Positions 1 through 43,151 of a DNA stretch of 43,342 nucleotides are shown piece after piece. A program made the translations under genes and the position numbers. Source of the stretch: Candidatus Omnitrophota bacterium (GTDB taxonomy: Bacteria > Omnitrophota > Gorgyraeia > Gorgyraeales > Gorgyraeaceae); NCBI GenBank assembly GCA_026387235.1, contig JAPLMD010000004.1, positions 1 to 43,342 on the forward strand, written 5' to 3'. Position 1 is the stretch's first letter; each line of letters begins with the position of its first letter. The notes below the pieces were generated by a model, which was not told the origin of the DNA, searched no databases, and saw only the letters and a list, made by a program, of their open reading frames with translations.

Positions 1-3000
1 AAACCGAAGGCCGGTATTTATCCACAGGTCACATCAAGCGGTTCCAAGCTTCTCTTTGGGACCTCTAATAACTACGCGGCTGGCATTACGAACACTGCAC
101 TTTTGATCGACCAAAACGGCAACGTCGGCATCGGGACGACGGCACCGGGCGAGAAATTGGAAGTAGTCGGGAATATTATTTCCAAAGGAACGTCCTGGAC
201 CATCCGCGTCTCTAATGCTGACAATGCTTGGTTGCGTTCCGTCACCTACGGCAACGGCTTGTTCGTAGCAGTGAGCGATAGCCCAGGCACCAGCGCCATG
301 ACTTCACCCGATGGTATTAATTGGACCGCTCGCACCACTCCTAATGGGGGCTGGTTCCACGTCACCTACGGCAACGGCATGTTTGTAGCCACAGGCTACA
401 ACAACAATAACATCATGAGTTCTCCCGACGGCATTAATTGGACCGCTCGCACCACATCCGTTGCCGGTTCGTGGCCTTCTGTCACCTACGGCAACGGCTT
501 GTTTGTGGCCGTGGGTAGAGATGCCACTACAAACGGCGTTATTACTTCTCCTGACGGTATTACCTGGACCGGCCGTACTAGTGCCGCAGCTATTGATTAT
601 GAAGACGTCACCTACGGCAACGGCCTGTTTGTGGCGGTGGCCATCACTGGCACTGGCAACCGGGTTATGACTTCTCCTGACGGCATTACCTGGACCAGCC
701 GTACTAGTGCCTCAGACAACAACTGGTGGTCCGTTACCTACGGCAATGGCCTGTTCGTAGCGGTGGCCTACAGTGGCACTGGCAACCGGGTTATGACTTC
801 TCCTGACGGTATTACCTGGACCAGCCGTACTAGTGCCGCAGACAACGACTGGCGGTGCGTTACCTACGGCGACGGCTTGTTCGTGGCTACGGCCGAAAGC
901 GGCACTGGCAACCGGGTAATGACTTCGCCGGATGGCATCAACTGGACCATTCGCACCTCTGCTGCTGATAATAATTGGCGCTCTGTCGTTTATGGTAATG
1001 GTATGTTTGTGGCAGTAGGTCACGGCAACGGCACCACTCACGTGATGACCTCTGGTAAAACAGAGATTACCACCTTTGCGCCCAACAATACCTATCAAGG
1101 CGGAATGAACATCTTCGGCAACGTCGGCATCGGGACGACAGCACCTGCTCAAAAATTGGATGTTGCAGGAAGCGTACTGCAGAAACAACTGGCACTGCCG
1201 CCTTTGGTGGGTTCCTATGATACTGCAGACACGCATAACGCTTTTTATTTCCAGGTTGTTGGCAAATATGCCTATATTGTTATGAGCGACGGCGGCATAG
1301 CTGCAAGCAAAAAGGATATGGTTATTCTGGATGTATCTAATCCTGCTTCGCCTATTTTAGTGGGCAGCCTGGATGACGATACTAATTTTTATCAGCCTAG
1401 CTGCATACAGGTGGTTGGTAAGTATGCATATGTGACAAACAGGCATGATAACACTGTGCCTGGCAAGAAGAATTTTATTGTCATTGATGTTTCTAACCCT
1501 GCAGCGCCTACTGTGGTAGGCGGCATTGATGATGATGTGAACCTTTATAATGCTTTTCCTTTTGCCATATCAGGCAAATACGCCTATGTGGGAAACTATC
1601 AATACGGCGCTAATAAAGTAGGCTTTACTGTTATTGATATCTCTAATCCTATTACGCCTGTTATAGTAGGCACTCTTTTAGATAATACAGACCTGTATGC
1701 GCCTATTCTTACCCTTAAGGTCGTAGGCAAATATGTCTATGTGGCAAATGATGCATGGGCCAGCGGCAACTCTAGCATAACCATTATTGATGTTTCCAAT
1801 CCTTCAGCGCCTTCCAAAGCCGGCAGGATTGGCGGCAATCAGGCTCTGACTCAGCCGCGATATTTTGAAATAGCAGGTAAATATCTCTACACAACTCTCG
1901 CTACCACAAGTGCAGCCAACAATAAACTTACTGTTCTTGATATCTCAAACCCTGCTTCGCCCTCTGTTGCAGCGGGTATTACAGACAATGTCAACCTGTA
2001 TAACGCCCGCGGCTTGGCTATGGCAGGCAAATATCTCTTTGTGGGTAGTAATACTAGGCAGGCAGGCACAGCGAACTTTACTGTTATTGATATTTCTAAT
2101 CCTCTTTCGCCAACAGTGGTGTGCGCCGCTCAAAATGACACTACTTATGGCAGGCCTCAACACATGCAGGTGGTGGGAAAATACCTTTATACAGCATTTG
2201 GCGATACTGGCGAGCCTGACTTCAGGATTTATGACATCTCAGGCCTTGATGCGCCTTCAGCTTCAATTGGCAATATTGCCACCAATGCCATCAATGTTGA
2301 GGGAGATGCCATTGTCAATAATAACCTTTATGTCAAGAGCGGCCTTAATGTCGGGCCATCTGGAGCCATGTTTAACGGCCCGATTTCTGTTCAAAGCACT
2401 ACGTCGCCTTCATTTTTTGCCGGCAACGTCGGCATCGGGACCACAGCGCCAACTACCAAGCTTTCCATCGTGCACAACAGTTCAAACCCTATAGACTTTT
2501 ACGATGGTAGCAGCGTGTTGGCAGGCAATATTTTCATGGCCGGCGGCACTTCCCGTCAGCTTGGATTCAACATGCCCGGCGCGACCGGAGCAAGTAGTAC
2601 TGGTGATAATTGGACATTGTTGCGTTATGGAGATGCGGCGAATAAGATATTTTTGGGAGATACTGGCAGCGTGTCGTGGATACAATCCAAACATAGTTTG
2701 TACTTTAAACCCGACAGTTCAAATGCTCCCAACTCCACTTTAATCCCGACGATGGTTATTACTAACGCCGGCACTGCCAACGGCAACGTCGGCATCGGGA
2801 CCACGGATCCGACTGCGAAACTCCACGTAGGAGGCACATCAGGCGTTGATGGCATAAGGTTTCCAGATGGTACATTGCAGACCACAGCAGGCGGCGGCGG
2901 AGGTGGCCAGTGGACCACTTCAGGAAATAATATCTATAATGCCAACTCCGGCAACGTCGGCATCGGCACCACAGCACCGGTGACGAAGTTGCAGGTTAAC

Positions 3001-6000
3001 AGTAAGGTTACTGATGATAATGCCTATTCCTATGACTCGAATTCCACATATCTGATTCATCAAACCGCAACTTCTACCACAGTACTAAATGACCCCAAGA
3101 CAGTTTTGTTGCTTGCTCGACAAGGTACGGGCGGACAAGCCTACGGAGCAGCAGCAGCATTTAATCTGTCCAGATATGAAAATAACGGCGTGAATTCAAG
3201 AACTCGTTTGGATATTTCATTGGCAAATGCGTCATTTGATGTTACCAGTAATAATGTAATGACATTGTTATCAAGCGGCTACGTCGGCATCGGGACTACG
3301 AATCCGCCAGACAAATTCAGCGTGCTGGGCGATGTGAATATATCGAGCTATGGCTACGCTGGAAACGGCAGGGCAACTTTATGGCTGGGAGCGCTTCCCA
3401 GCACTTGGGACAATTCTTTAGTTACTGATGACGCTACTGGCAGGCTGGATTTTATGAAGGATAATGGTAACGGCGTTGCCTCGATGACTATTTTGCAAAG
3501 CGGCAACGTCGGCATCGGGACGACAGCGCCTCTCGGACGGCTCCATGTCGCGGATTCCGCGTGGACAAATACCGTGCTTCTCGAGAGATCAGGGTTCACC
3601 ACTGACACATTTGCCACTGCCGTTAGGGTATTGGCAACAAAGACCTCAAACATGGGTGATGGATTCGGACCTGTAATTAATTTTACAATTCAAGACGACG
3701 CTGCAGCGATTAATACCATTGGCGATTTTGGCGTGATACGGGATGGCAACGATCAGTCGGGCGCCTTTGTTTGGAATACTCGCACGGTGGGCACAATCAA
3801 TGAACGTATGAGAATTACAAATACAGGCAACGTCGGCATCGGGACGACAGCGCCAACATCGCAGTTACATCTTTACAGGTCAGCTCTTAATACTAATACT
3901 TACATAAATACTGCTGATGGTGTAATTTCGGCAACAGAAGATGGAGCGGCCCGTCCTAACAACTTTATACATATGTATGATAATTGGGGCTCTGCGGACT
4001 TTGCTATTAAAAAATACGATGTTAATATCGTGGCTTTCTTTGCTGGTGCTGGAGATGATTTATATCTTGGAGCTAACGATACTCCCTATCTTAATATCAA
4101 AGCCGGTGGCAACGTCGGCATCGGGACGACGGCACCGGTGGGCGCTCTCGAAGTTAATAGCAATACCAATCCACAGGCTGTAATCCGGCAATATTTTGAT
4201 ACTGGTAGTGCAGACTTATGGTTGAAGGGTAGTCTCAATAGCGCGGGTTGGAAATTAGTCGCGCAAGGAGCTAATTATGCCACCAGTCCGAACGCGTTGT
4301 CATTTAGGTATAACGATAGCTCCAAAATACTGTTTGATTCCAGCGGCAACGTCGGCATCGGGACGACGGCACCCTTTCGCTTATTAGACCTTAATAATAC
4401 TACAGGGATATCACAGGCTCACATCACGAAAAATGGAACTGACGATGGGGGCTATATCACTTCTATTGGCGCATCTAACTTTTTCCTTTCTGGCGGGACT
4501 GCGTATGATGCCAGTGGCACTAATTGGACGGCCAAGAATGCAAGTGCGAGCATACTTGGAGCAAACGAGGGTGCAGTGAAGTTTTATACTGATACCGGAC
4601 TGACGCCCGGGGTTTCATACGCTCCAAGTTTGAGAATGACTATTGACAACGCAGGCAACGTCGGCATCGGAACGACGGCGCCCGGCAGGCAACTGGAAAT
4701 CTATAGCGCCAGCAACGCTAATATGCGTATTTATAGTAATACTGCAGGGTCAACCGGCGCAGGAATCTTCTTCCGCAACAACGGAAGTACCGCCGGTAGC
4801 AGGAACTTTTGGGTGGGAGTCGGGAACGATACGGCCTTAAGATTCAGACTGTATTCTGACAATGACGCGACTTTCTCTGATTTGATGTACTTGACCTCTA
4901 CCGGCAGCGTAGGCATCAATACTACTGCCCCGGAGGCAAAGCTTGAAGTAGCAGGCACGCTAAAGATTGCTGGCGCAGGGGACGCGAATATTGCTAATGA
5001 TTTATATTTTGAGAACATCACATCTTCGAATATAAAATCCTATGGCCCCTTGATGATCCAGTCAGGCAATTCAAATTCAAACTATGACCTGACCCTAAAA
5101 GGTACAGGCTCAGGGACAGTTTATGTGGATGGCCCATTAAGGCTTTCACAGATTTCAGCGCCGAGCCCTACCACAGATAAACTCTACAACGTAGCCGGGA
5201 GCTTATATTGGAACGGCACTGCTCTCGGCTCTGGCGGCTCAAGCCAGTGGACTGGCACAAATCCTATTTATTATACGGCCGGCAACGTCGGCATCGGGAC
5301 GACGGCGCCGATTGATAAACTTCATGTTACTGGAGGAGATGTGAGGATAGGCTCGCCTACTGTAAGTAATGCTTCTGGTTCCCCTGATTTATTTGTGCAG
5401 GGAAATCTTGAGGTTGATGCCACAGGTTATTTTGATACCAATCTTATTGTGGCGGGCAACGTCGGCATCGGTTCTACAAGCCCTCAAGCCACACTTGACT
5501 TAGGAACAGGCACAGGTCGTAGACTGTATATTTATAACAGCGGTACGGTAAGGGCAGGTTTTGGAATAGATTTAGTCAGCGGTCCGCGTGAACTTAGCAT
5601 ATTCCATCCTACTGCTGGAACGGATGGCTTTATCGCCTTCGGCTCTCAAACCGACGGGACTACTACTTTTACGGAACGGATGCGCTTAACTGGAGCCGGC
5701 TACGTCGGCATCGGCACTAACGCTCCGCTGTCTCCTCTCTATATATCAACAACCAATGATGCCTATACTAATCTGGCAAATGTTGCGAACTATTCCACAG
5801 TTTTTAAGCTACAGACAACATCTACAGGCGTAGGTCAAGGTATTGCCTGGTCAGCTGGAACAAACCCGAATGTTGGTGCTGCTATGGTTTTTAAGAGAAC
5901 TGATTTGTATAGCAAGGGACAACTTGAATTCTATACAAAACAATCTAATGTAGATGCGGTTGCGCCTTCGTTGGTTATGGTTCTGAGCGACGCCGGCAGC

Positions 6001-6708
6001 GTCGGCATTGGAGAAACGACAATTGCCACTGGCAAGCTGGCCGTAAGTGGCACCAATGGGTATGCTGAGTCTGGAATAAACTTAAAGGTTGTCGCTAGAT
6101 TCAGTGGGGACGCGAATAATGCGATTGTCCTGAATTCTACCTCGGCAAATAGCAGCGGTTACAACAGAGGTTTTGAATGGAGTTATACAGGTGATGATTT
6201 TGGCATCAGCCGATTCGCTTCTAATGGTACTGGATCTCGTATTAATGATTTTTTCATAAGTACCACCGGCAACGTAGGCATCGGGGCGACAAGTCCAGTC
6301 TATAAGTTGCAGGTCGCAGGCTCATTTGCAGCAACGTATAAGAACTTTGAAATCACTCATCCTCTGGATCCGAATAAGATCCTGACGCATAGTTCTATTG
6401 AAGGCCCTGAGCATGCAGTGTATTATAGGGGAGAGGCTCAGCTTGTGAATAGCGAAGCAGTAATAACTTTGCCGGATTATTTTGAGGCTCTTACAAGGAA
6501 GGAAAACAGGACTGTTCAACTTACGCCAATCAAAGGTTTTTCTCTGCTCTATGTATCTGAAGAGGTGATGGAGGGTAAATTTAAGGTTCGCGCCGCAGAT
6601 GGTGGCAACCCTTCGCAGAGGTTCTACTGGGAAGTGAAGGCTGTAAGAGCTGATATACCGGAGTTGGTGGCGGAGAAGGAAAAGCCAAAGAAAGAAAAGA
6701 ATAAGTAA
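1..6708 (+). CDS. Giant repetitive secreted/fibre-like protein, truncated at the 5' window edge: BNR/kelch-like propeller repeats, LVIVD repeats, then many GNVGIGTTAP repeats and a C-terminal 'HPLDPNKIL.H..IEGPEHAVYYRGEA' domain
   Basis: Frame 1 is open from base 1 (KPKAGIYPQVTSSGSKLLFGTSNNYAAGITNTALLIDQNGNVGIGTT...), so the listed start at 103 (TTG) is internal. Repeat motifs are visible in the translation; stop at 6706-6708. Confidence 0.9.
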   Translation, partial: KPKAGIYPQVTSSGSKLLFGTSNNYAAGITNTALLIDQNGNVGIGTTAPGEKLEVVGNIISKGTSWTIRVSNADNAWLRSVTYGNGLFVAVSDSPGTSAMTSPDGINWTARTTPNGGWFHVTYGNGMFVATGYNNNNIMSSPDGINWTARTTSVAGSWPSVTYGNGLFVAVGRDATTNGVITSPDGITWTGRTSAAAIDYEDVTYGNGLFVAVAITGTGNRVMTSPDGITWTSRTSASDNNWWSVTYGNGLFVAVAYSGTGNRVMTSPDGITWTSRTSAADNDWRCVTYGDGLFVATAESGTGNRVMTSPDGINWTIRTSAADNNWRSVVYGNGMFVAVGHGNGTTHVMTSGKTEITTFAPNNTYQGGMNIFGNVGIGTTAPAQKLDVAGSVLQKQLALPPLVGSYDTADTHNAFYFQVVGKYAYIVMSDGGIAASKKDMVILDVSNPASPILVGSLDDDTNFYQPSCIQVVGKYAYVTNRHDNTVPGKKNFIVIDVSNPAAPTVVGGIDDDVNLYNAFPFAISGKYAYVGNYQYGANKVGFTVIDISNPITPVIVGTLLDNTDLYAPILTLKVVGKYVYVANDAWASGNSSITIIDVSNPSAPSKAGRIGGNQALTQPRYFEIAGKYLYTTLATTSAANNKLTVLDISNPASPSVAAGITDNVNLYNARGLAMAGKYLFVGSNTRQAGTANFTVIDISNPLSPTVVCAAQNDTTYGRPQHMQVVGKYLYTAFGDTGEPDFRIYDISGLDAPSASIGNIATNAINVEGDAIVNNNLYVKSGLNVGPSGAMFNGPISVQSTTSPSFFAGNVGIGTTAPTTKLSIVHNSSNPIDFYDGSSVLAGNIFMAGGTSRQLGFNMPGATGASSTGDNWTLLRYGDAANKIFLGDTGSVSWIQSKHSLYFKPDSSNAPNSTLIPTMVITNAGTANGNVGIGTTDPTAKLHVGGTSGVDGIRFPDGTLQTTAGGGGGGQWTTSGNNIYNANSGNVGIGTTAPVTKLQVNSKVTDDNAYSYDSNSTYLIHQTATSTTVLNDPKTVLLLARQGTGGQAYGAAAAFNLSRYENNGVNSRTRLDISLANASFDVTSNNVMTLLSSGYVGIGTTNPPDKFSVLGDVNISSYGYAGNGRATLWLGALPSTWDNSLVTDDATGRLDFMKDNGNGVASMTILQSGNVGIGTTAPLGRLHVADSAWTNTVLLERSGFTTDTFATAVRVLATKTSNMGDGFGPVINFTIQDDAAAINTIGDFGVIRDGNDQSGAFVWNTRTVGTINERMRITNTGNVGIGTTAPTSQLHLYRSALNTNTYINTADGVISATEDGAARPNNFIHMYDNWGSADFAIKKYDVNIVAFFAGAGDDLYLGANDTPYLNIKAGGNVGIGTTAPVGALEVNSNTNPQAVIRQYFDTGSADLWLKGSLNSAGWKLVAQGANYATSPNALSFRYNDSSKILFDSSGNVGIGTTAPFRLLDLNNTTGISQAHITKNGTDDGGYITSIGASNFFLSGGTAYDASGTNWTAKNASASILGANEGAVKFYTDTGLTPGVSYAPSLRMTIDNAGNVGIGTTAPGRQLEIYSASNANMRIYSNTAGSTGAGIFFRNNGSTAGSRNFWVGVGNDTALRFRLYSDNDATFSDLMYLTSTGSVGINTTAPEAKLEVAGTLKIAGAGDANIANDLYFENITSSNIKSYGPLMIQSGNSNSNYDLTLKGTGSGTVYVDGPLRLSQISAPSPTTDKLYNVAGSLYWNGTALGSGGSSQWTGTNPIYYTAGNVGIGTTAPIDKLHVTGGDVRIGSPTVSNASGSPDLFVQGNLEVDATGYFDTNLIVAGNVGIGSTSPQATLDLGTGTGRRLYIYNSGTVRAGFGIDLVSGPRELSIFHPTAGTDGFIAFGSQTDGTTTFTERMRLTGAGYVGIGTNAPLSPLYISTTNDAYTNLANVANYSTVFKLQTTSTGVGQGIAWSAGTNPNVGAAMVFKRTDLYSKGQLEFYTKQSNVDAVAPSLVMVLSDAGSVGIGETTIATGKLAVSGTNGYAESGINLKVVARFSGDANNAIVLNSTSANSSGYNRGFEWSYTGDDFGISRFASNGTGSRINDFFISTTGNVGIGATSPVYKLQVAGSFAATYKNFEITHPLDPNKILTHSSIEGPEHAVYYRGEAQLVNSEAVITLPDYFEALTRKENRTVQLTPIKGFSLLYVSEEVMEGKFKVRAADGGNPSQRFYWEVKAVRADIPELVAEKEKPKKEKNK
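241..1050 (+). repeat. Seven ~120-126 bp tandem units encoding SVTYGNGLFVAV...VMTSPDGITWTSRTSA (BNR/kelch-like propeller blades)
   Basis: GT(C/T)(A/G)(C/T)(C/T)TA(C/T)GG(C/T) unit starts at 241, 361, 481, 607, 733, 859 and 985; the middle units are nearly identical at DNA level. Confidence 0.85.
1190..2260 (+). repeat. LVIVD-type repeats (VVGKYAYV....F.VIDVSNP..P..VG)
   Basis: Repeated 'VGKYAYV...IDVSNPAAPTVVGGIDDD' motif about every 40-44 aa, characteristic of the LVIVD beta-propeller family. Confidence 0.8.
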
Positions 6709-6743: not shown

Positions 6744-6775
6744 GTCATTGCGAGGCCGTAGGCCGAAGCAATCTC
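6744..6775 (+). repeat. REP-like imperfect palindrome, left copy
   Basis: ATTGC/GCAAT outer arms and GGCC-GTA-GGCC inner hairpin. Confidence 0.75.
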
Positions 6776-6776
6776 T

Positions 6777-7067
6777 ATGTATAAACAATATTATGTATAC
6801 ATAATGACAAATAAAAACAATACAGTTCTTTATACGGGTGTGACAAATGATTTGGTGAGGAGAGTATATGAGCATAAAGAAAAGTTAGTGCCTGGATTTA
6901 CAAAGAAATATAATATTACGAAGTTAGTTTACTATGAGGCCTGTGAAAATGTAGAACAGGCAATATTAAGAGAAAAGAAAATTAAAGGCGGTTCCAGGGC
7001 TAAAAAGATGATATTGATAAATGGGATGAATAAAGAGCGGAAAGATTTGTACGAGGATATAATATGA
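6777..7067 (+). CDS. Single-domain GIY-YIG endonuclease (YhbQ/UPF0213-like)
   Basis: MYKQYYVYIMTNKNNTVLYTGVTNDLVRRVYEHK...EQAILREKKIKG: YVYI/YTG motif pair, conserved Arg and His, catalytic-type Glu. Confidence 0.9.
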   Translation: MYKQYYVYIMTNKNNTVLYTGVTNDLVRRVYEHKEKLVPGFTKKYNITKLVYYEACENVEQAILREKKIKGGSRAKKMILINGMNKERKDLYEDII

Positions 7068-7093
7068 GATTGCTTCGCTTCGCTCGCAATGAC
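7066..7093 (-). repeat. REP-like imperfect palindrome, right (inverted) copy
   Basis: Reverse complement GTCATTGCGAGCGAAGCGAAGCAATCTC matches the ends of the left copy. Confidence 0.75.
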
Positions 7094-7108
7094 ATGCTGG
7101 AGGGCTGT

Positions 7109-9728
7109 ATGAGGAACCCACAACCCACAACCCACAACCCGACCCACAACTCACAACGCATCCTCACAACTCATAGCAGAGCCATACTAATCTTGATACT
7201 CTTTACTATTATTTTCGCCATCAGCGTAGATAATGCCTTTGCTGCCTGGTACAATGCTAGCTGGAAATACCGCAAGAAAATTACCATTGACTACACCAAG
7301 GTCTCTGGCGGCGCTAACTTGAGCTATTTTCCAATGCTTTTTACCATGGCTGACTGGCAACTTAAAACTATTGCCAATGGCGGATATATGGGCAACTCCG
7401 GCGCTACAGATATTGTTTTTACCTCTTCTGACGAGGTTACCAAAATCCCGCACGAAATCGAGAAATTCACTGACTCTACTGGAGAGCTGAAAGCCTGGGT
7501 GAGAATCACCACGCTTTCGTGTAGCGCTGATACAATCATCTATATGTACTACGGCAATGCTGGCTGCGCTGACCAGCAGGATAAAACAGGGTTATGGAAT
7601 GACGGCGGATCAAGCTATTACAAAGGCGTGTGGCATTTTCCGAATGGCACAAGCCTGACTGCAAATGATTCTACAGGAAATGGAAACAATGGAACAGTTA
7701 GCGGAGCTAGTGCAACTACTGGACCGATTGATGGTGCGGCAAATTTCACGGGAACAACTAATTCTATTGTTACGCCTAGCACCTCTGCTTTAAACACTGA
7801 TATTCATACTATAAGTTTTTGGTTTAAACTTAATAGCACATCAGCTAACTGGACCAAGATTATGGGTTATCAAGCTGGGGGAACAGATAGGACTCCTGGT
7901 ATTTGGGTTTATCAGGCCGGGCAAAATATTCACTGGAAATATGATCCGGGTAATACTGGCACGAACGCTATCGGGCCTAATGGCGAAGGGACCAATTTTA
8001 TTCTAGGGCAGTGGTATTACATTGTGGGTGTAAAGAATGAAAAAGCTTTTTGGTTTTATGTTAATGGGGTTGAAAAATCTGGAGGTATAATAGTTGCTAA
8101 TCCAAAAACCTCTGGTAATGCTGCAATTGAATTTGGGTACGCTGGTTATGAGGCGCCATCTATGAATTTAGATGAAGCCCGCGTTGCTTCTACTGCTCGT
8201 TCCGCAGGCTGGATTGCCACCGAATACAATAACCAAAATTCTCCAGCTACTTTTTATAGCGTAGGAGACACAGCCGGCGTTACCTGGACCCAGGGCACTA
8301 ACCCATCTTGGAATAATAGAACCGGCTATGGATGTGTAGTTTATAACGATAAGATATGGATTATTGGCGGGTCGCTCAGCGGCACCGGTCGGAAAAACGA
8401 TGTCTGGTATTCAAGTGACGGAACTAACTGGACTCAGGCTACTGCAGCAGCGGGCTGGACAGCAAGGGATGGTCTGGGATGTGTAGTTTATGACAATAAG
8501 ATATGGGTTATGAGGGGAAATTGCTGTAAACCTGATGTTTGGTATTCAAGCGATGGCGTTAGCTGGACCCAGGCCACTGCAGACGCAGGTATGGGTGGAG
8601 GATATCTGTGGAAAAATGTTTTAGTTTTTCAAAATAAAATGTGGGTCATAGGTAAAACTAATTTCGTTAATTCAGTCTATTATTCAACCAATGGTGTTAA
8701 CTGGACGCTAGCCTCTGCGCCGTCCTGGCCAGGAAGGAATGGCCAGAATTGCTTAGTTTATGACAATAAGATGTGGCTTATAGGTGGAAGCCGCAATGCA
8801 ATAGCTCCCTGTCAAAGTTCTCAAACCGGAACTCTCAGCACTGACCAAGCTTACAATTATTCAATGGGGTATAAGTTTACTCCCACTATTGAAGGCAGGG
8901 TAACAGGATTCTACGGCTTTTTTAACGGCACAAAAACAGTAAGGCTTTATGATGCTAAGCATAGACCCAATAGCGTCTACTACAGTGACCGGCGTTGGAA
9001 CACAGTTTTTGACACAATTGGCAGTAGATAACATATTAGTTGTTTCAGGCGAAGTAAGGGTAGTTACTGCCATAGCATCAGATACATCTTTGACTGTTGA
9101 TACAGCATTTTCAGATAATCCCAATGATACTTCTCCGGATAAACATACTTTTAGGTGGTCATGGCCCTTTGTTAGTATTGATCCTCGGGTAAATGTAGAG
9201 CCTGGCTTAGTCTATTATGTGGTAGTTGAGGGAGCAGGAAGCGGTGGAGCAATTCGGAACTCTGCAACCATTCCTACAAGCTATGACTATGTTACAATAA
9301 ACGCCTCTGTTTATCAATCTCCCAGCGGTACATTTAATGCCAGCCCTACAGAAACGACTACTAGTATGTATGGCTTGGTAGATGTTCAGGTTGAAGATAG
9401 ATTAAGAGATGATGTCTGGTATTCGAGTGATGGCAGTAATTGGACGCAAGCTACGTCGAATGCTGCTTTTGGTTTAAGATCGAGCTATAGCTGCGAGGTT
9501 TTTGACAATAAGATGTGGGTTATTGGCGGAACTTTGCCTCAGTACTGCAGGCAGAAAGATGCCTGGTGGTCAACTGACGGCGCTAACTGGACGCGGGCTA
9601 CTTCAGCAGCCTGGGCAAACACCAGAGCTATGGATGCCAGTGTAGTTTTTAAAAATAGGCTATGGACATTTACCAGATGTGTTGGTGATAATGTACAGTA
9701 TACGAACAGCGACTACTGGAATCCGTAA
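7109..9728 (+). pseudogene. Frameshifted (or sequencing-error-split) secreted protein: DUF2341 + LamG-like + kelch-like repeats + DUF4082-like domain
   Basis: ORF 7064..9031 (WYNASWKYRKKITIDY..., DUF2341-like; VWYSSDGTNWTQAT repeats) ends inside a domain that continues in the +1 frame as 8949..9728 (TTVTGVGTQF...; VWYSSDGSNWTQAT repeats). The first ~15 codons of ORF 7064 are translated REP repeat, so an ATG at 7109 or later is the likelier start. Confidence 0.7.
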
Positions 9729-39489: not shown

Positions 39490-39582
39490 AGTCCATTGAT
39501 AAGGGTAAACCATTCGAAAGAATGGGGCGCAAAGCTTTAGAGCCTAAAAGTCCGGAGGGACTTATGGTTGTCAGCTGCCAAA
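39490..39582 (+). ncRNA. Cyclic-di-GMP-I (GEMM-I) riboswitch aptamer
   Basis: AAGGGTAAACCATTCGAAAGAATGGGGCGCAAAGC...AGCCTAAAAGTCCGGAGGGACTTATGGTTGTCAGCTGCC: CCATTC-GAAA-GAATGG stem with tetraloop, conserved GCGCAAAGC and CCTAAA. Closely parallels the Vibrio Vc2 GEMM-I sequence. Confidence 0.9.
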
Positions 39583-43062: not shown

Positions 43063-43151
43063 AGGTCCTTCGTCCCGAGCCGCTAGTAAGTAAAAATGAT
43101 GCGGCGAGGGACTCGGGATCAAATTTGCTTCGCAAATTTGGGAGGATTTAT

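Follow-up and report, generated by a model that had tools for sequence, protein, structure and literature searches.

The DNA analysed here as a whole, referred to below as the window, is a stretch of 43,342 nucleotides (positions 1-43,342 of contig JAPLMD010000004.1, assembly GCA_026387235.1) from Candidatus Omnitrophota bacterium. It contains a small gene for a GIY-YIG nuclease enclosed by two hairpin repeats in inverted orientation (Table 1). A single base separates the left repeat, which reads GTCATTGCGAG-GCCGTAGGCC-GAAGCAATCTC, from the ATG of the nuclease gene, and the stop codon TGA (7065-7067) overlaps the right repeat. The positions assigned to both repeats, the ORF and the overlap in an earlier note on this DNA proved right to the base, and two further ORFs that it had considered spurious products of the repeat (6932..7147 and 6966..7154) are indeed in part repeat translations. 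Elsewhere, the window holds an ORF of 2201 aa in which the motif GNVGIGTTAP recurs many times and whose C-terminal part has relatives in just a few of the related genomes, a c-di-GMP-I riboswitch, and a dispersed palindrome that has near copies elsewhere in the host genome, at least on C3, C4, C28, C29 and C57.

Table 1. Position and strand of features in the window
Feature	Position	Strand	Basis or score
2201-aa ORF	103-6708
Left hairpin repeat, GTC-ATTGC-GA-GGCC-GTA-GGCC-GAA-GCAAT-CTC	6744..6775	+	sequence
GIY-YIG nuclease gene, 96 aa	6777..7067	+	PF01541, model, PDB neighbours, residues
Right hairpin repeat, inverted, GTC-ATTGC-GA-GC-GAA-GC-GAA-GCAAT-CTC	7066..7093	-	sequence
c-di-GMP-I riboswitch	39494-39582		73.5 bits
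Dispersed palindrome, TCGTCCCGAGCCGC...GCGGCGAGGGACTC	43070-43114

The encoded protein consists of a GIY-YIG domain, recognised by PF01541 at 62.6 bits (E 4e-17; cut-off 22.6), and has all of the catalytic residues Y8, Y19, R29, H33 and E66, Y8 and Y19 being the GIY and YIG tyrosines; these five residues are kept in essentially all homologues. An AlphaFold2 model built from 46 relatives reached a pLDDT of 94.8, and its nearest folds in the PDB, UPF0213 protein BH0048, Slx1 and the N-terminal domain of UvrC, are all GIY-YIG proteins that share fold and catalytic motif with the window protein but are only about 18-30% identical to it. The dN/dS ratio ranges from 0.04 to 0.22 among close readable homologue pairs, and a few homologue copies contain internal stops. 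As judged from these comparisons, the catalytic residues of the nuclease are under purifying selection.

Three other assignments of the gene were considered and rejected. A RAYT-type Y1 HUH transposase (PF01797) is excluded by the match to PF01541. Homing endonucleases of the GIY-YIG type belong to the same superfamily and have a proposed selfish spread in common with the window gene, which differs in being a free-standing, intergenic ORF bounded by repeats and outside any group I intron or intein; the intron endonuclease model scored 17 bits against a cut-off of 56, and no Rfam intron was found in the window. A role in anti-phage defence was dismissed, with no PADLOC match and no homologue in the phage collection.

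The host genome of 1.5 Mb holds three copies of the exact pattern TCATTGCGAG..GAAGCAATCT, two of them at the nuclease gene, and four copies of a looser pattern; the reversed-pattern control for TCATTGCGAG..GAAGCAATCT gave no occurrence in the whole host genome. With so few copies, there is no sign of amplification of the repeat in this host. Solo copies were found in related genomes, where a copy in G009 is identical to the left repeat over 35 bp and many copies are near-identical to the right repeat, so that solo repeats do match those flanking the nuclease, a point that the earlier note had raised for checking.

Homologues across phyla and the repeat hairpin

Eighty homologues (61-79% identity) were taken from a genome collection by protein similarity alone, and their phyla include Chloroflexota, Nitrospirota, Planctomycetota, Thermodesulfobacteriota, Cyanobacteriota, Ignavibacteriota and Elusimicrobiota. 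The motif GTCATTGCGA, allowed up to one mismatch, was scored in the 77 homologues with enough flank and lies at most 150 nt away on both sides of the gene in 64 of them, compared with a background of 0.034 per 150 nt further out at the same loci. The left copy is forward and the right copy reversed in 55 of the 77, the motif is missing on one or both sides in 13, and it was not found inside the nuclease gene at any of these loci. In a motif-free test, left flanks were aligned with reverse-complemented right flanks and the score was compared with 60 shuffles; all shuffles were exceeded for 53 of 78 collection homologues and for 25 of 28 close homologues from related genomes, whereas control segments 200 nt further out matched that score in 8-14%.

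Homologues of the nuclease are thus bounded by inverted copies of the repeat, a point that the earlier note had likewise put forward for checking, and an association at chance level, which would have counted against its proposed role for the enzyme, is contradicted by both the background and the shuffles. The same counts reject the explanation that an ordinary gene and a common repeat simply happen to be adjacent, to which we attach practically no weight: some genomes hold many members of the repeat family, but the host genome contains three to four copies, two of which are at the nuclease gene.

The distance from repeat to gene ranges from 0 to about 100 nt among homologues. This variation speaks against a purely regulatory role, in which the flanking hairpins would control nuclease expression through a translation block or transcript stability and be kept for that alone, as might be supposed from a left hairpin one base before the ATG and a right hairpin over the stop. 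We regard such a role as very improbable, given that solo copies of the same repeats occur genome-wide and that it does not predict a repeat type that tracks the enzyme subfamily, as described below.

The ends of the repeat are constant (GTC-ATTGC-GA ... GAA-GCAAT-CTC), and its middle is nearly free in sequence, yet self-complementary. Inner-stem positions are paired in 73% of cases; permutation of the 3' arms between repeats lowers this to 46%, and none of 500 permutations gave a value as high as 73%. Tandem G-A pairs are also frequent. In the window, an outer stem of 5 bp is followed by an internal loop, a further 2-4 bp and a CTC tail. The left copy has a stable predicted single-strand DNA fold of -6.3 kcal/mol (z -2.25); the single-strand folds of the right window copy and of the C68 copy are not exceptional alone. 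The covarying hairpin favours single-stranded DNA folded in this way as the form that the enzyme would recognise.

Repeat types, enzyme subfamilies and Y1 transposases

Around more distant homologues the repeats are of other kinds, namely GTCATTTCGAG, GTCATTCTGAG...GAATCT, GTCATTCCCGC...GCGGGAATC and CGTCATCCTCGGG. Placed on a tree of 118 proteins, the five repeat types required nine changes; shuffled labels needed 28.1, and none of 200 shuffles came as low. The tree is built from only 96 columns, has few supported forks and carries labels assigned by inspecting the flanks, and related rows by themselves cluster labels. To judge from the flanking sequences, each enzyme subfamily carries its own repeat across phyla.

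Among 99 relatives, TGCG repeats were found in all ten genomes with the TGCG-type nuclease versus 40 of 89 without it (p=0.001), and TCCC repeats in all eight genomes with the TCCC-type nuclease versus 21 of 91 without it (p=2.5e-5), kinship being ignored in both comparisons; mismatched nuclease/repeat pairs showed no association in the same set. In G091, all four GTCATTCTGAG repeats lie less than 500 bp from the nuclease gene, and the single repeat copy of G016 adjoins its nuclease gene. Relatives that hold TGCG repeats without the TGCG-type nuclease have up to 67 copies. Since 40 of the 89 genomes keep the repeat without the nuclease subtype, the nuclease is not needed for repeat persistence. 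The earlier proposal that GIY-YIG proteins are the mobilising or maintenance enzymes of the repeat is therefore upheld in part: the physical and evolutionary tie, seen in the flanks and on the tree, is strongly supported, and a mobilising or maintaining action, against which the persistence of the repeat without the subtype counts, stays a proposal. It should be noted that in G054 GTCATTCTGAG repeats stand right at many contig ends (positions about 56-100), where they probably break the assembly, so that repeat counts from draft genomes are lower bounds.

Because enzyme and repeat are paired version by version across many phyla, the GIY-YIG nuclease is very probably the missing partner of this widespread bacterial repeat family. 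Y1_Tnp genes, which are present in 52 of 59 relatives, provided a control. Not one of the 26 with usable flanks (L215-L240) is bounded on both sides by GTCAT repeats, whereas 18 of them have their own inverted repeats on either side. The Y1_Tnp genes of the relatives are independent RAYT/TIRYT-type units in the same lineage, and a RAYT partnership for the GTCAT repeats is rejected by this result.

Presence and absence of the unit

Four lines of indirect evidence suggest that the unit moves, although movement itself was not seen. The same-genus homologue, 75% identical to the window protein, is as distant as homologues from other phyla (74-75%), a cross-phylum similarity that wrong binning of metagenome contigs can inflate, but homologues from isolate cyanobacteria are also 64-69% identical. 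Neighbouring genes change from locus to locus, and the match between the window gene with its flanks and G001 runs from the left repeat into the right repeat, where it stops. The remaining line is the presence or absence of the unit at related loci.

In Azospirillum lipoferum, the nuclease gene and its repeats lie between sufB and sufC, which are separated by a short repeat-free gap in A. oryzae, A. ramasamyi, strain B510 and others. The homologue of Shinella sp. PSBB067 is likewise located between sufB and sufC, and other Shinella plasmids differ by a repeat-nuclease-repeat block. In Planktothrix agardhii, strains that carry the nuclease gene inside a repeat array and strains that lack the gene have this array in common. 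Neither base-exact junctions nor a target duplication were seen in these presence/absence comparisons, and the flanks in Rhizobium CIAT894 and Neorhizobium gave no clean empty site. An empty site for the window locus was not found in the searched relatives, where genes related to the left-hand gene share about 40-55% identity with it and have neither the nuclease nor the right-hand gene beside them. Related loci that lack the unit were thus seen in Azospirillum, Shinella and Planktothrix but not for the window locus.

The Planktothrix gene, inside a pre-existing repeat array, would also suit a passenger, that is, a GIY-YIG gene trapped as cargo among repeats that are moved by a Y1 transposase, a phage integrase or homologous recombination. 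The presence of Y1_Tnp genes in most of the relatives and the persistence of repeats without the nuclease point the same way. We nevertheless consider the passenger role improbable, as the Y1_Tnp genes are not bounded by these repeats, and neither a repeat type that tracks the nuclease subfamily nor the same gene in so many phyla would be expected of cargo.

Relation to known systems and proposed mechanism

Chenal et al. are said to have described in 2025 a site-specific single-strand GIY-YIG nuclease of Neisseria, Ssn, with its NTS/dRS3 repeats, and the same study reportedly found thousands of homologues with sequences of their own. The homologue from Neisseria gonorrhoeae, 48% identical over 99% of the query and located within a dRS3-type repeat array, is presumably Ssn. 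In view of that study, the window locus would represent a new member of that enzyme family, and the idea of a GIY-YIG enzyme with a cognate repeat is less new than the earlier note had supposed. What is new here is the anatomy of the repeat-bounded unit, its connection with the CGTC REP superfamily, the Y1 transposase control and a two-part hairpin that covaries. Like Ssn, the window protein is small and free-standing, has the catalytic residues and belongs with a many-copy cognate repeat, and by analogy it may cleave single strands. The two systems differ in the repeat, which in the window forms a hairpin of two parts, with ATTGC/GCAAT as outer stem, GA/GAA as internal loop and an inner stem that varies, and in Neisseria follows the dRS3 pattern ATTCCC-N8-GGGAAT (PMC3898611), and in the host genome studied here, which has only three to four copies.

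The homology to a Neisseria protein in a dRS3 array, the conserved active site and the dispersal of the repeats through genomes would be consistent with a nuclease of genome dynamics, which, as is reported for Neisseria Ssn, would cut incoming or exposed single-stranded DNA at repeats and tune uptake and recombination nearby, the repeats beside its gene being merely the nearest targets and nothing being mobilised. On its own this is an unlikely explanation, because it accounts neither for tight inverted bounding in many phyla nor for the presence or absence of whole blocks; such a role is compatible with a mobile repeat-nuclease unit as a side effect.

CGTC repeats occur in several phyla, and according to a 2013 survey they lack an enzyme of their own, perhaps because it has died out (PMC3733652). 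The CGTC REP superfamily takes in dRS3 and RPE-4/RPE-6, and both Sinorhizobium meliloti and A. lipoferum are among the hosts in that survey (PMC3733652). We found the homologues of S. meliloti, Shinella, Neorhizobium, Rhizobium and Azospirillum to be bounded by CGTC-type repeats. The window repeat shares with the CGTC class the GTC tag, a stem that starts with AT and head-to-head dimers (PMC3733652): against a class tag of CGTC, TGTC or CCTC, its right copy reads TGTCAT and its left copy AGTCAT, neither being the GTAG tetranucleotide, and alphaproteobacterial relatives have CGTCAT. It departs from the class stem of 8-9 bp, loop of 4-5 nt and CCA-like tail in that its stem is longer, variable and interrupted by an internal loop and its tail is CTC, and the repeats of the alphaproteobacterial relatives fit these dimensions better. 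A literature search by repeat sequence returned nothing relevant. Two records labelled as plasmids, NZ_CP119140.1 and CP090106.1 (2.2 and 3.7 Mb), resemble the N. gonorrhoeae and S. meliloti chromosomes, respectively.

Similar to REPtrons, the locus has one nuclease gene between inverted palindromic repeats that are also dispersed as solo copies (PMC8266576, PMC3733652), as well as a repeat-specific enzyme. The enzyme is GIY-YIG here and Y1 HUH in REPtrons, and the tag is GTC (CGTC/TGTC class) here and GTAG there. RAYT genes are said to show no mobility (PMC8266576), unlike the window-type nuclease gene with its presence/absence pattern. We read the locus, with a probability of roughly 0.7, as a unit similar to a REPtron in which a free-standing, Ssn-like GIY-YIG nuclease takes the place of the Y1 HUH transposase.

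We infer that the nuclease mobilises the repeat. The enzyme would bind the constant hairpin ends (GTCATTGCGA...GAAGCAATC) when replication or DNA uptake exposes the repeat as a single strand, and nick the hairpin. Repair or recombination at nicked repeats could then generate copies of the unit, and sometimes of solo repeats, at other sites, which would let the unit pass between species. Enzyme and repeat would thereby travel as a co-adapted pair, and solo repeats would outlast lost nucleases. The single-strand cleavage is proposed by analogy with the enzyme reported from Neisseria, and the copying is likewise hypothetical. A wider generalisation, which we hold tentatively and at slightly less than even odds, is that free-standing GIY-YIG nucleases serve the entire superfamily of (C)GTCAT-type palindromic repeats as its dedicated enzymes and form a second, phylum-crossing REPtron class that nicks single-stranded hairpins and moves itself and its repeats independently of HUH transposases.

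The partner of the CGTC repeats is identified here by position, by co-variation and by a specific negative control. As each locus is a ready enzyme/substrate pair, the origin and spread of the repeats become testable, and the loci provide many candidate single-strand-specific nucleases with predicted target sequences.

Other GIY-YIG genes were observed beside different repeats. The host genome has a second one (L002, C21:11414-11644), 30% identical and flanked by another inverted repeat, GAGTCCCGAGC; the exact 14-nt motif at this locus is present only at its two flanks. In a distant GIY-YIG subfamily (<50% identity; L030, L033, L122-L174), 23 of 61 genes are bounded by short inverted repeats (ACCCCGTTAGAGAT, ACCCCGCACCTTCT, GCCCCCACACCAATTT, ACCCAGCCCCTCC), many of which are not palindromic in themselves, and this subfamily is perhaps a second nuclease/repeat system.
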